Shown: positions 2,650 through 27,114 of the stretch, one piece after another
Layout: the number at the start of each line of letters is the position of its first letter
Numbering within the stretch: the first letter of the stretch is position 1
Origin: Parcubacteria group bacterium
Lineage (GTDB): Bacteria > Patescibacteriota > JACQLU01
Length of the DNA: 34,623 bases
Assembly: GCA_016203935.1 (NCBI GenBank)
Contig: JACQLU010000015.1
Span: forward strand, 1 to 34,623
Reading direction: 5' to 3'
The notes under the pieces: model-generated
Database searches by the model: none
The model's input: only the letters and a program-made list of their open reading frames with translations
Told to the model about the DNA's origin: nothing
Made by a program: the position numbers and the translations under genes

Positions 2650-2744
2650 ACTCGTGTGACTTCGTGTTACATTTCGTGTCTTTTCGTGTATGCAAGTCTT
2701 CCACACTAATAGACACAAATACAAACACGAATGGACACGAATCT
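2650..2744. repeat. Word-type inverted repeat between groES and groEL (TTCGTGT / ACACGAA)
   Basis: The left arm carries four copies of (T/C)TCGTGT at 10-12-nt spacing (about 2651-2690). The right arm carries two ACACGAA copies plus a degenerate one (2712-2741). The arms are reverse complements, so the groES-groEL mRNA linker can form a long imperfect hairpin. Confidence 0.6.
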
Positions 2745-2754
2745 CATAGGGAAA

Positions 2755-3057
2755 CTACTTCTCTATAATTGCGAGCACGTCGTCCTCCTTAAGAATAAGG
2801 TACTCGACGTCGTCGATCTCGACTTCGTTCGGCGAGTATTTGGTGAAGACTACGCGGTCGCCCTTCTTCACTTCCATGGGCGCGCGCTTGCCATCCTCCA
2901 TGCGCTTTCCCGGCCCCACCGCGATCACTTCCCCTTGTTCAGGGCGTTCTTTTTCGGCAGTATCGGGAAGCACGATGCCGGATTTGGTTCGTTCCTCTTC
3001 GGTAATGGGTTTAACGATTACTCGATCACCAAGCGGTTTAAGGTTCATTTTGGCCAT
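2755..3057 (-). CDS. groS: Co-chaperonin GroES (Hsp10, 10 kDa)
   Basis: The lid of the GroEL cage. Family signature [12 protein letters not shown] begins at about residue 5. The mobile loop reads [21 protein letters not shown], and the C-terminal half carries [33 protein letters not shown]. Starting at MAKMNLKP gives 100 residues, the usual length. The frame is open to a GTG at 3072, but that codon overlaps the SD-like GGGAGGTG, so the ATG at 3057 is preferred. It is first in the groES-groEL operon, directly downstream of the promoter and CIRCE. Confidence 0.96.
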
Positions 3058-3105
3058 AAATAGTGTGCGCACCTCCCTTCGTATACCTTAAAAGATGGTA
3101 GAATA

Positions 3106-3201
3106 TTCTGCGTTGTTCTGGTCGCCTCAGGCGACCGTCTGTTCTGCGATGGAGGTCTTTAACGCGGAACCACGCAGAATGGAACGCAGAACTACGCAAA
3201 A
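3106..3201. repeat. Word-type inverted repeat in the groES leader (TTCTGCG / CGCAGAA)
   Basis: TTCTGCG words at 3106-3148 face CGCAGAA words at 3173-3196. A perfect 7-bp hairpin, GGTCGCC-TCA-GGCGACC, sits at 3120-3136. The block shares the 18-mer ACGCGGAACCACGCAGAA with the pyrG leader repeat (27021-27114), although the genes are unrelated. Confidence 0.6.
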
Positions 3202-3206
3202 CGTGA

Positions 3207-25221: not shown

Positions 25222-25227
25222 TGTTTT

Positions 25228-25349
25228 GGATACTTGTAGATATTGATAGATACTGGTAGATACTCGTAGTACGTGCAATAAGTATCTATCAGTATCGGTC
25301 GCCGGAGGCGACCAAATATCTATGAGTATCTATAAGTATCTTCAGAGTA
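25228..25349. repeat. Word-type inverted repeat between pyrG and the phosphomannomutase gene (TAGATACT / AGTATCTA)
   Basis: GATACT-type decamers at 25228-25269 face AGTATCTA-type decamers at 25281-25349, with the hairpin GGTCGCC-GGA-GGCGACC (25297-25313) between. It overlaps the last codons of pyrG. The mRNA arm AGTATCTATCAATATCTAC, directly before the ATG, is the same as in front of uvrA. Confidence 0.65.
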
Positions 25350-26994
25350 TCCTCTGCTGCGCCGCGGTCTTCTCTTTCATCGCGGCACCTTTTTGGTAGT
25401 GTATTGCTGCTCCGACAAAATCCCTAAAGAGCGGATGCGGCCGATTGGGGCGCGAGCGGTACTCGGGGTGGAACTGGGTGGCGATAAACCATGGATGATC
25501 TCGTAACTCAATAATCTCGACGAGATCAAGATCGGGATTAACGCCCGAGGCAATAAGCCCTGCGCGCTCGAATTGATCGCGATACGCATTGTTGACTTCG
25601 TAGCGGTGCCGGTGGCGCTCGTATACTCTCTCGGTCTGATACGCCGCGTACGTCTTAGTCCCCTTTCGGATCACCGCGGCGTAGGCCCCGAGCCGCATCG
25701 TGGCACCCTTAGTTGCGATTTTCTTTTGTTCCTCCATGATATCAACGACGGGATGGGGAGTATTGGGATCAATCTCGGTGCTGTTGGCTCCTTTGAGGCC
25801 CACCACATTCCGCGCGAACTCTATCGTGGCAAGCTGGAGTCCAAAACAGAGTCCAAGATAAGGTACCTTATGTTCGCGTGCAAAACGGGCGGCCATGATT
25901 TTTCCTTCGGTACCACGCGCACCAAAGCCGATCGGCACCACAATGCCGGATACTTCGCCAAGCGCATCGAGCGGTACGATGCCTTTCTCCAAATCCTCCG
26001 AGTTAATCCAATGAACCTCGATATCCACCTCGTGATGAATCCCGGCAGATTTTAACGCTTCGGTAACCGAGATGTACGCGTCGTGGAGCTGTACGTACTT
26101 TCCCACTAACGCAATCGGAAGTTTCTCCTTTTTCGCATGAATCTTGGCAACCATCGCGGTCCATTCGGCAAGGTCGCTCTTGCGCGGAGTGAGGCCTAGG
26201 TTGCTAAGGACAATGTCGTCTACGCGCGCCCGCTTAAGGTTTACCGGAATATCGTAGATCGATTGCACCGTCGGCAAATCGATGACGTGATCTTCGGCGA
26301 CGTCGCAAAAGAGCGCAATCTTCTTAAAGAGTTCGGAAGCGATAGGAAAATCAGCGCGACAACCGATCATATCGGGCTGCACCCCGTAGGAGCGAAGCTC
26401 CTTCACCGCATGCTGGGTAGGTTTGGTTTTGAGCTCGCCGGTCGCCGCAAGATGAGGAAGTAAGGTAAGCATGGAGACATACGTATTCTGGTGACCCAAT
26501 TCGCGCCGTAGCTGCCGCACCGCCTCCAAGAAAGGCATGCCTTCGATGTCGCCTATCGTGCCCCCTACTTCGACAATGAGGATTTCGGCGTTCTGCGTCT
26601 CCGCGGCTCCCTTGATACTCGCTTTAATCGCGTCGGTGATGTGGGGCACGATCTGAATGGTGCTTCCCAAAAAATCGCCGGTGCGCTCCTTGGCAATAAT
26701 ACCCTGATAGAGTTGTCCGGTGGTAAGGTTATTCACTTTACCAAGGTTCTCATCGATGAAACGTTCGTATTGCCCAAGGTCAAGATCGGTTTCGGCGCCG
26801 TCGTCGGTCACGAAGACCTCGCCATGTTGATACGGATTCATGGTGCCGGGGTCAACATTGAGATACGGATCGAGTTTTTGTAAGGAAACTTTAAAACCGC
26901 GCGACTTAAGCACGGTCCCAAGCGAAGCGGCAAAGGTACCCTTGCCGAGTGACGACGAGACTCCTCCCACAACAAAAATAAACTTCCGGTCCAT
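25342..26994 (-). CDS. pyrG: CTP synthase (glutamine hydrolysing)
   Basis: 550 residues; makes CTP from UTP, ATP and glutamine. The synthetase domain begins RKFIFVVGGVSSSLGKGTFAASLG (P-loop) and continues with KLDPYLNVDPGTMNP and GGTIGDIEGMPFLEAVRQ. The class I glutaminase half has YLGLCFGLQLATIEF (nucleophile Cys) and FIATQFHPEYRSRP (His/Glu). Length is normal. The start is the ATG of MDRKFIF; the frame is open to 27120 but only through repeat DNA. No SD. The last codons run into the TAGATACT repeat, so the extreme C-terminus (TAAQQRIL) may be species-specific. CTP also feeds the lipid-kinase-like and lipid pathways. Confidence 0.97.
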   Translation of the reverse strand: MDRKFIFVVGGVSSSLGKGTFAASLGTVLKSRGFKVSLQKLDPYLNVDPGTMNPYQHGEVFVTDDGAETDLDLGQYERFIDENLGKVNNLTTGQLYQGIIAKERTGDFLGSTIQIVPHITDAIKASIKGAAETQNAEILIVEVGGTIGDIEGMPFLEAVRQLRRELGHQNTYVSMLTLLPHLAATGELKTKPTQHAVKELRSYGVQPDMIGCRADFPIASELFKKIALFCDVAEDHVIDLPTVQSIYDIPVNLKRARVDDIVLSNLGLTPRKSDLAEWTAMVAKIHAKKEKLPIALVGKYVQLHDAYISVTEALKSAGIHHEVDIEVHWINSEDLEKGIVPLDALGEVSGIVVPIGFGARGTEGKIMAARFAREHKVPYLGLCFGLQLATIEFARNVVGLKGANSTEIDPNTPHPVVDIMEEQKKIATKGATMRLGAYAAVIRKGTKTYAAYQTERVYERHRHRYEVNNAYRDQFERAGLIASGVNPDLDLVEIIELRDHPWFIATQFHPEYRSRPNRPHPLFRDFVGAAIHYQKGAAMKEKTAAQQRIL

Positions 26995-27020
26995 AGTATG
27001 CGTTGAGATAGCGCTTACAC

Positions 27021-27114
27021 TTCTGCGTAGTTCTGCGTCCGATTCTGCGTTCCTTCTGCGATAGAAAGCTTCCCACGCGGAACCACGCAGAACTATACGC
27101 GGAATAACGCAGAT
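27021..27114. repeat. Word-type inverted repeat in the pyrG leader (TTCTGCG / CGCAGAA)
   Basis: TTCTGCG words at about 27021-27060 face CGCAGAA-type words at 27076-27112. It shares ACGCGGAACCACGCAGAA with the groES leader repeat. Confidence 0.6.

Follow-up and report, generated by a model that had tools for sequence, protein, structure and literature searches.

The window analysed here, the whole stretch of 34,623 nucleotides, is contig C54 of a Patescibacteria genome (G000; 1.0 Mb in 97 contigs, 87% complete), and it carries groEL, groES, lig, a nucleotidyltransferase gene (NTase), uvrA, rnj, trpS, a phosphomannomutase gene (pmm) and pyrG. A sequence-only reading of the window had described degenerate word repeats, mostly with an inverted arm, in the gaps before most of these genes, and every gap that it listed contains its words. 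Pairs of 6-mers, direct and/or inverted, exceeded those in dinucleotide shuffles (p = 0.003, the floor with 300 shuffles per gap) in the groEL-groES, groES-lig, NTase-uvrA, tRNA-rnj, rnj-trpS and pmm-pyrG gaps and 5' of uvrA and pyrG. When the window was scanned for regularly spaced sets of four equal words, 10 intergenic clusters and one in the end of an ORF were found, compared to none in five shuffles; intergenic DNA makes up 15% of the window. The typical array is a short intergenic word followed, usually, by its own reverse complement, and the claim that the arrays are mostly inverted is borne out.

Instead of the loose 7-12 nt periodicity first described, the words keep to fixed layouts. 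TTCTGCG, TTCGTGT (with ACACGAA) and ATCCGCG occur as four words at 10-12-10, which gives a TTCTGCG arm a length of 39 nt; in these TTCTGCG arms, words and spacing are constant and spacer letters are free. Arms of TAGATACT follow 10-10-10, often with a palindrome of type CATTGTACGTACAATG at their centre, and TTTGGAC and CTAAT/ATTAG (ATTAGAA) are plain heptamers at 7-7-7. With repeat units of 7-8 nt and spacers of 0-4 nt, the arrays are not CRISPRs, as had been held, since those have identical repeats of ~24-40 nt and unique spacers of constant length. GC hairpins had been placed in the middle of the arrays; they are present, but not only centrally, since examples such as GGTCGCCTCAGGCGACC separate the words of an arm, at a fixed phase. 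Similar hairpins also occur inside Omnitrophota arms. The features of the window are as follows, with the layouts of GxxExxY and S23p arms described below.

944..983, no strand: single four-word arm, ATCCGC(G), 10-12-10 (GxxExxY-type layout), 3' of groEL (array scan)
2651..2689, plus: left arm, TTCGTGT x4, 10-12-10 (array scan; matches arms of the GxxExxY genes L200 and L232)
2703..2742, minus: right inverted arm, ACACGAA/ACACTAA x4, 10-12-10 (array scan)
3106..3150, plus: left TTCTGCG arm 5' of groES, broken by a GC hairpin
3120..3136, no strand: nested hairpin GGTCGCCTCAGGCGACC within that arm (sequence; same hairpin in arms at other G000 loci)
3162..3201, minus: right inverted arm, ACGCRGAA x4, 10-12-10, groES 5' gap (array scan)
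3286..3312, plus: TCGGAG(C) heptamer array, 7-7-7, within the 3' end of ORF 3277-4653 (array scan)
5630..5672, plus: left arm of a heptamer element (CTAATxx), NTase-uvrA gap (inverted repeat I1)
5696..5738, minus: right arm, ATTAGAA heptamers, 7-7-7 (S23p-type layout; array scan)
8631..8658, plus: left arm TAGATACT/TAGATATT, period 10, 5' of uvrA
8664..8681, no strand: nested hairpin CTCCGACCTCGGTCGGAG
8709..8767, minus: right arm AGTATCTA x4, split by hairpin 8725-8745 (GTCCCGAGAAAATCGAGGGAC)
14125..14143, plus: remnant, two TTCTGCG words (pattern search)
18993..19024, plus: TTTGGAC/TTTGAAC heptamer arm, 7-7-7, between tRNA-Leu and rnj (array scan)
20949..20988, plus: AAGCTAACG array, period 8-9, 5' of trpS (best arm match 27, to L220; no clear cargo class)
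22413..22436, plus: AAGCTA array, period 8 (array scan)
25227..25269, plus: left arm TAGATACT x4-5, period 10, pmm-pyrG gap (array scan)
25281..25341, minus: right arm of AGTATCTA words, split by hairpin 25297-25313 (GGTCGCCGGAGGCGACC)
27021..27060, plus: left arm TTCTGCG x4, 10-12-11, 5' of pyrG (pattern search)
27075..27113, minus: right inverted arm ACGCRGAA x4, 10-12-10, pyrG 5' gap (array scan)

The hairpin core GGTCGCC..GGCGACC also occurs as stand-alone, terminator-like stems (CGTCCTCGGTCGCCTCAGGCGACCAAGGACG) at 27210-27239 and 29280-29310. Positions 21990-22100 hold a palindromic GGATCC-type repeat (GTCATCCCTGCGGAGGCAGGGATCCAGACTGGATCCCAGATTAAATCTGGGATGACA) that resembles widely scattered bacterial repeats.

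The results for G000 as a whole come from pattern searches and sampled stretches. TTCTGCG pairs numbered 25 genome-wide compared to 0 for the reversed pattern, and TAGATACT pairs 53 compared to 8. The same layouts recur across the genome, in agreement with the claim that the words have spread to unrelated loci. A role as 5' leaders of genes lacking a Shine-Dalgarno (SD) sequence, which had also been proposed, fared less well. As read from the sequence, GGGAGGTG precedes the groES ATG by 12 nt, and this leader is not clearly SD-less. In 46 sampled stretches the array positions followed the gap-type background, with 35 co-directional, 7 convergent and 6 divergent among 48, compared to 75, 18 and 14 among all 107 gaps. 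Uniform occurrence irrespective of gene orientation had been named in advance as counting against the earlier interpretation, and it was borne out in part; a 5'-leader role is not supported, and the earlier interpretation as a whole is partly supported. Arrays were also found within ORFs, both in G000 and in other genomes.

Cargo genes between inverted word arms

Complete elements, in which an arm, a short ORF and an inverted arm follow one another, carry either S23p/IVP (a four-helix bundle, PF05635) or GxxExxY (PF13366/TIGR04256). Both PF05635 (S23p/23S-rRNA-IVP) genes of G000 are flanked by inverted word arms. The one on contig C29 is bracketed by arms of TAGATACT, the word also found in the uvrA and pmm-pyrG gaps of the window, and is the one complete TAGATACT/S23p copy elsewhere in this genome; the next ORF downstream is also protein-coding, and the copy does not lie in an rRNA gene. 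The other gene, on C57, sits between CGAAATTTCGATAT-type arms. PF05635 was present in 36 of 59 relatives. When the upstream flank was aligned by Smith-Waterman (SW) with the reverse complement of the downstream flank, S23p loci in relatives were inverted at 19/27 (SW >=28) compared to 2/27 for uvrA, with a median score of 36 compared to 17 for uvrA and 18 in direct orientation. A clear inverted flank was absent in this comparison at about 30% of the S23p loci. On cyanobacterial plasmids, 7/9 S23p genes lay between inverted arrays, the clearest of which are four-heptamer arrays (GGGAGTA, GGGTGTA, GGGAACA). A candidate in-frame S23p insertion within a host gene (L299) was not convincing.

In other genomes, arms of the TTCTGCG, ACACGAA and ATCCGCG types bracket GxxExxY genes. 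Where GxxExxY genes stand free in relatives, they are flanked by words in inverted orientation, and the words differ between loci. The flank symmetry of these genes had a median SW score of 34.5, with 28/36 at >=28, compared to 17 for uvrA and 18 in direct orientation; a clear inverted flank was absent by the same comparison at 22% of GxxExxY loci, and no clear arms were seen at three plasmid-borne GxxExxY genes from other phyla. Counts of exact 6-mers in the flanks failed to separate GxxExxY from controls and were uninformative because of the AT-rich background, whereas Smith-Waterman alignment separated them. Among free-standing loci, the arm words tracked nuclease similarity between genomes (Mantel rho 0.26, p = 0.002), compared to 0.08 (p = 0.10) for the distal-flank control. 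The window's own TTCTGCG, TTCGTGT and ATCCGCG arrays matched 9-24 of 88 GxxExxY terminal arms, compared to 1-2 of 87 distal flanks, and control gaps matched 0-2. At SW >=26, the ATCCGC(G) arm (944..983) was matched by 9/88 arms and 2/87 distal flanks, and the pyrG 5' gap (27021..27113) by 24/88 and 1/87.

By profile, GxxExxY is a PD-(D/E)XK nuclease family (PF13366, E = 4e-33; TIGR04256, E = 3e-35), and the predicted fold points the same way. For the fold our confidence is modest: the best matches of the predicted structure (pLDDT 71) were lambda-type exonucleases and the Cas4-like SSO0001, none at E <= 0.001. A match to T7 endonuclease I was non-significant (E = 0.11), and we make no claim of a Holliday-junction resolvase. 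Many Omnitrophota GxxExxY genes (L270, L272, L273, L278 and others) are broken by stops or fragmentary, as is expected of decaying mobile genes.

The arm layout differs with the cargo protein. Arms around S23p are evenly spaced with period 7 (7-7-7), and those around GxxExxY have a period of 8-11, in most cases 10, and a middle gap that is longer by 1-3 nt (about 10-12-10). Period 7 was found in 20/24 S23p arms compared to 1/35 GxxExxY arms (p = 7e-11), and the longer middle gap in 2/24 compared to 33/35 (p = 8e-12), among loci from metagenome-assembled genomes whose flank samples are best-scoring hits rather than random ones. Several of the lepA copies are related, so that the loci are not entirely independent; when GxxExxY was restricted to its free-standing loci, the split gave p = 3e-8 for period and 1e-8 for the middle gap. 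The TAGATACT arms, which accompany S23p at 10-10-10, depart from the rule, and the word families AAGCTAA and TCGGAG have no assigned cargo.

Insertions in protein genes and their junctions

The pattern TTCYGCGTNNTTCYGCGTNNNNTTCYGCG, which describes the TTCYGCG 10-12 layout, matched 82 stretches in 84,980 genomes, where a rough estimate of the chance expectation is ~0.06 matches. The matches fall in Patescibacteria, Omnitrophota, Elusimicrobia and Poribacteria, and genomes with this layout encode PF13366 in 28/45 cases compared to 10/96 relatives. About half of the arms lie within long open frames, many of them housekeeping genes as named by eye. A full arm-GxxExxY-inverted arm unit with the frame open throughout was found in lepA (nine loci), recG (two loci) and one ligase-like ORF. 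The lepA site is empty in a relative (86% identical over the query), is empty or differently filled in more than 20 other genomes, and holds ORF-less arms in L145 and L286. It may be either a hot spot or a tolerant loop. At this site, just before the NLIDTPGH codons, unrelated in-frame arrays occur in four other genomes, L282-L285 (AAATCCC, TTCCAA, CTAATT, AAATCC), and the insertion of L284 includes a CTGGATTCCCGCTTTCGCGG stretch related to the window repeat GTCATCCCTGCGGAGGCAGGGATCCAGACTGGATCCCAGATTAAATCTGGGATGACA (21990-22100). In the fusA gene of L095, an arm lies at the homologous position and the encoded EF-G is ~14 residues longer than solved EF-G, so that a TTCYGCG element is probably present there in frame. 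A tpiA candidate (L119) was rejected as a clean 13-codon insertion, because compared to solved homologues the arm partly replaces sequence rather than adding it. In G000 itself, a large surface protein on contig C38 (L011) has three TTCTGCG arms in its reading frame; this protein also carries a separate in-frame repeat, IPASPAGGLRSTQDD.

For the junctions with host DNA, arms were oriented as CGCRGAA. On its 5' side the arm directly adjoins a fold-back hairpin in 11/43 cases, compared to 2/43 on the 3' side and to 2.8% at random places (p = 6e-7 for the 5' side). In lepA, where the host side is known, the hairpin is made of a stretch of host sequence and, after it, an inverted copy of that stretch, e.g. 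GTCAGGATG-CTTTGG-CATCCTGAC, where GTCAGGATG encodes the LepA residues VRM. At L098, an inverted host copy is present at both junctions. A hairpin-ended or snap-back intermediate would explain such fold-back junctions. No target-site duplication was evident between filled and empty lepA alleles, whose hosts are only ~86% alike in LepA protein, and no transposition event was seen between strains.

Origin of the arrays

We consider it likely that the arrays belong to a class of small mobile elements and are their four-word terminal arms, the complete form being arm, short ORF and inverted arm. The intergenic words are then best read as end-pieces of tiny, mostly gutted elements; their spread is better explained in this way because intact relatives flank S23p and GxxExxY in inverted pairs. 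Lacking an ORF, the window copies would be miniature non-coding derivatives or fragments, like MITEs. The putative S23p partner of TAGATACT is in the same genome, and the putative GxxExxY partner of the TTCTGCG and ACACGAA ends was found in other genomes only. Searches with PF13366 and TIGR04256 found no GxxExxY in the 87% complete G000 assembly, so the TTCTGCG, TTCGTGT and ATCCGCG copies have no partner in that assembly. In the window, the arm pairs of these three words are divergent (TTCTGCG first), whereas ORF-bearing pairs are convergent (CGCRGAA first), and the TTCTGCG-type pairs are thus not simple ORF deletions; TAGATACT copies keep the ORF-bearing arm order. The cargo protein may recognise its arm words and move its own element as well as, in trans, the copies that lack an ORF. 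If insertion proceeds by way of a hairpin or fold-back end, some junctions would be left with host DNA copied in inverted orientation, and the insertions that survive would be those that landed between genes or, within coding sequence, in frame.

It is unlikely that the arrays are regulatory operators, that is, paired inverted four-word sites for nucleoid or transcription factors that S23p and GxxExxY genes happen to carry. Conserved words about one helical turn apart, free spacers and pairs on opposite strands would suit such sites, and those of Geobacter metallireducens have been described in the same terms (PMC2700814), but the arrays show no orientation preference, many different words coexist within one genome, several unrelated word families occupy one lepA site, and arms lie in frame within coding DNA and on both sides of an ORF. 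Still less probable is replication slippage or template switching, in which tandem words would expand in gaps and inverted copies would form by fold-back with no dedicated protein. A four-word layout that is fixed while its spacer letters are free, that recurs with the same words in different phyla and that is specific to the cargo protein argues against this origin, as do the filled and empty lepA alleles, even though tandem heptamers are common products of slippage (PMC4679880) and fold-back junctions were observed. We give the least credence to selection on RNA, in which the arms would pair in the transcript into a long stem that serves mRNA stability or processing by RNase III, in the manner of the Coxiella intervening sequence (IVS), whose ends form a 28-bp stem that RNase III cuts (PMC4990558), because, although the arms are complementary word by word, single arms are common, spacers do not pair, and a reading frame open through coding insertions would be needless if the element were excised from RNA.

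As mobile elements, the arrays share several traits with MITEs and REP/REPIN sequences, being short, non-coding, palindromic and dispersed, with rarer ORF-bearing relatives. The window elements have the terminal inverted repeats, absent ORF and multiple copies of a MITE; they differ in that they end in four-word arrays instead of fixed terminal repeats, their partner is not a known transposase, and target-site duplication is unseen. Rickettsia palindromic elements are short palindromes inserted in frame in housekeeping genes. Placement in frame in protein genes was likewise found for relatives of the window's elements, in the conserved genes lepA, recG and probably fusA, and for three arms in the G000 surface protein, whereas the arms built of words, the defined cargo ORF of complete copies and the spread across phyla set the present elements apart. 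The closest known kind is the 23S rRNA IVS. In Coxiella burnetii it has an S23p ORF, paired ends, and three GACAGAT and one GACAGAA heptamers before the ORF (PMC4990558). The S23p four-helix-bundle ORF, terminal inverted repeats and heptamers are shared with our elements, as would be, were these mobile, the selfish behaviour listed for Coxiella (PMC4990558). Given this common S23p anatomy, the best description of the class is that of IVS-like elements located outside rRNA. An S23p ORF between terminal inverted repeats occurs on C29 and C57 and not in the ORF-less window copies, which lie between protein genes and not in rRNA genes. Other differences from the IVS are the intergenic location, and the second cargo, GxxExxY, whose elements have a layout of their own and occur inside protein genes as well.

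Cyanobacterial STRR heptamers are tandem heptamers in intergenic DNA. TAACTGA heptamers in Beggiatoaceae, Cyanobacteria and Bacteroidetes are nearly all direct, have no described cargo and have been proposed to act in translation control (PMC4679880). By description, both resemble the present arrays in being tandem intergenic heptamers in scattered phyla, often near start codons; they differ in that here cyanobacterial S23p genes lie between inverted heptamer arrays, the only such tie examined. The class 1-4 sites of G. metallireducens, with 3-5 tandem 7-8-mers in opposite-strand pairs at variable distance, were read as IHF/HU sites (PMC2700814), and they are alike by description alone, as tandem short words paired on opposite strands. 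In a literature search that most subscription journals lay outside, we found no work that makes a general connection between word arrays and either S23p or GxxExxY. We raise as a tentative possibility that one mobile class, its four-word arms read by S23p or GxxExxY, underlies many unexplained word repeats in bacteria, among them the STRRs, TAACTGA heptamers, Geobacter sites and Patescibacteria arrays, inserting by fold-back with copying of host DNA at the junction and colonising conserved codons in frame and unspliced. If so, several bacterial short-repeat sets described without a mechanism would have a common origin, S23p (four-helix bundle) and GxxExxY, both very widespread and both of unknown function, would gain a testable role, and non-spliced insertions would have a route into essential proteins. 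Binding assays and genome scans could test what the pairing rule between arm and protein predicts. On three of the cyanobacterial plasmids (L323, L325, L327), the S23p genes lie inside CRISPR operons, in the orders cas6-S23p-cas4 and cas10-S23p-cmr3.
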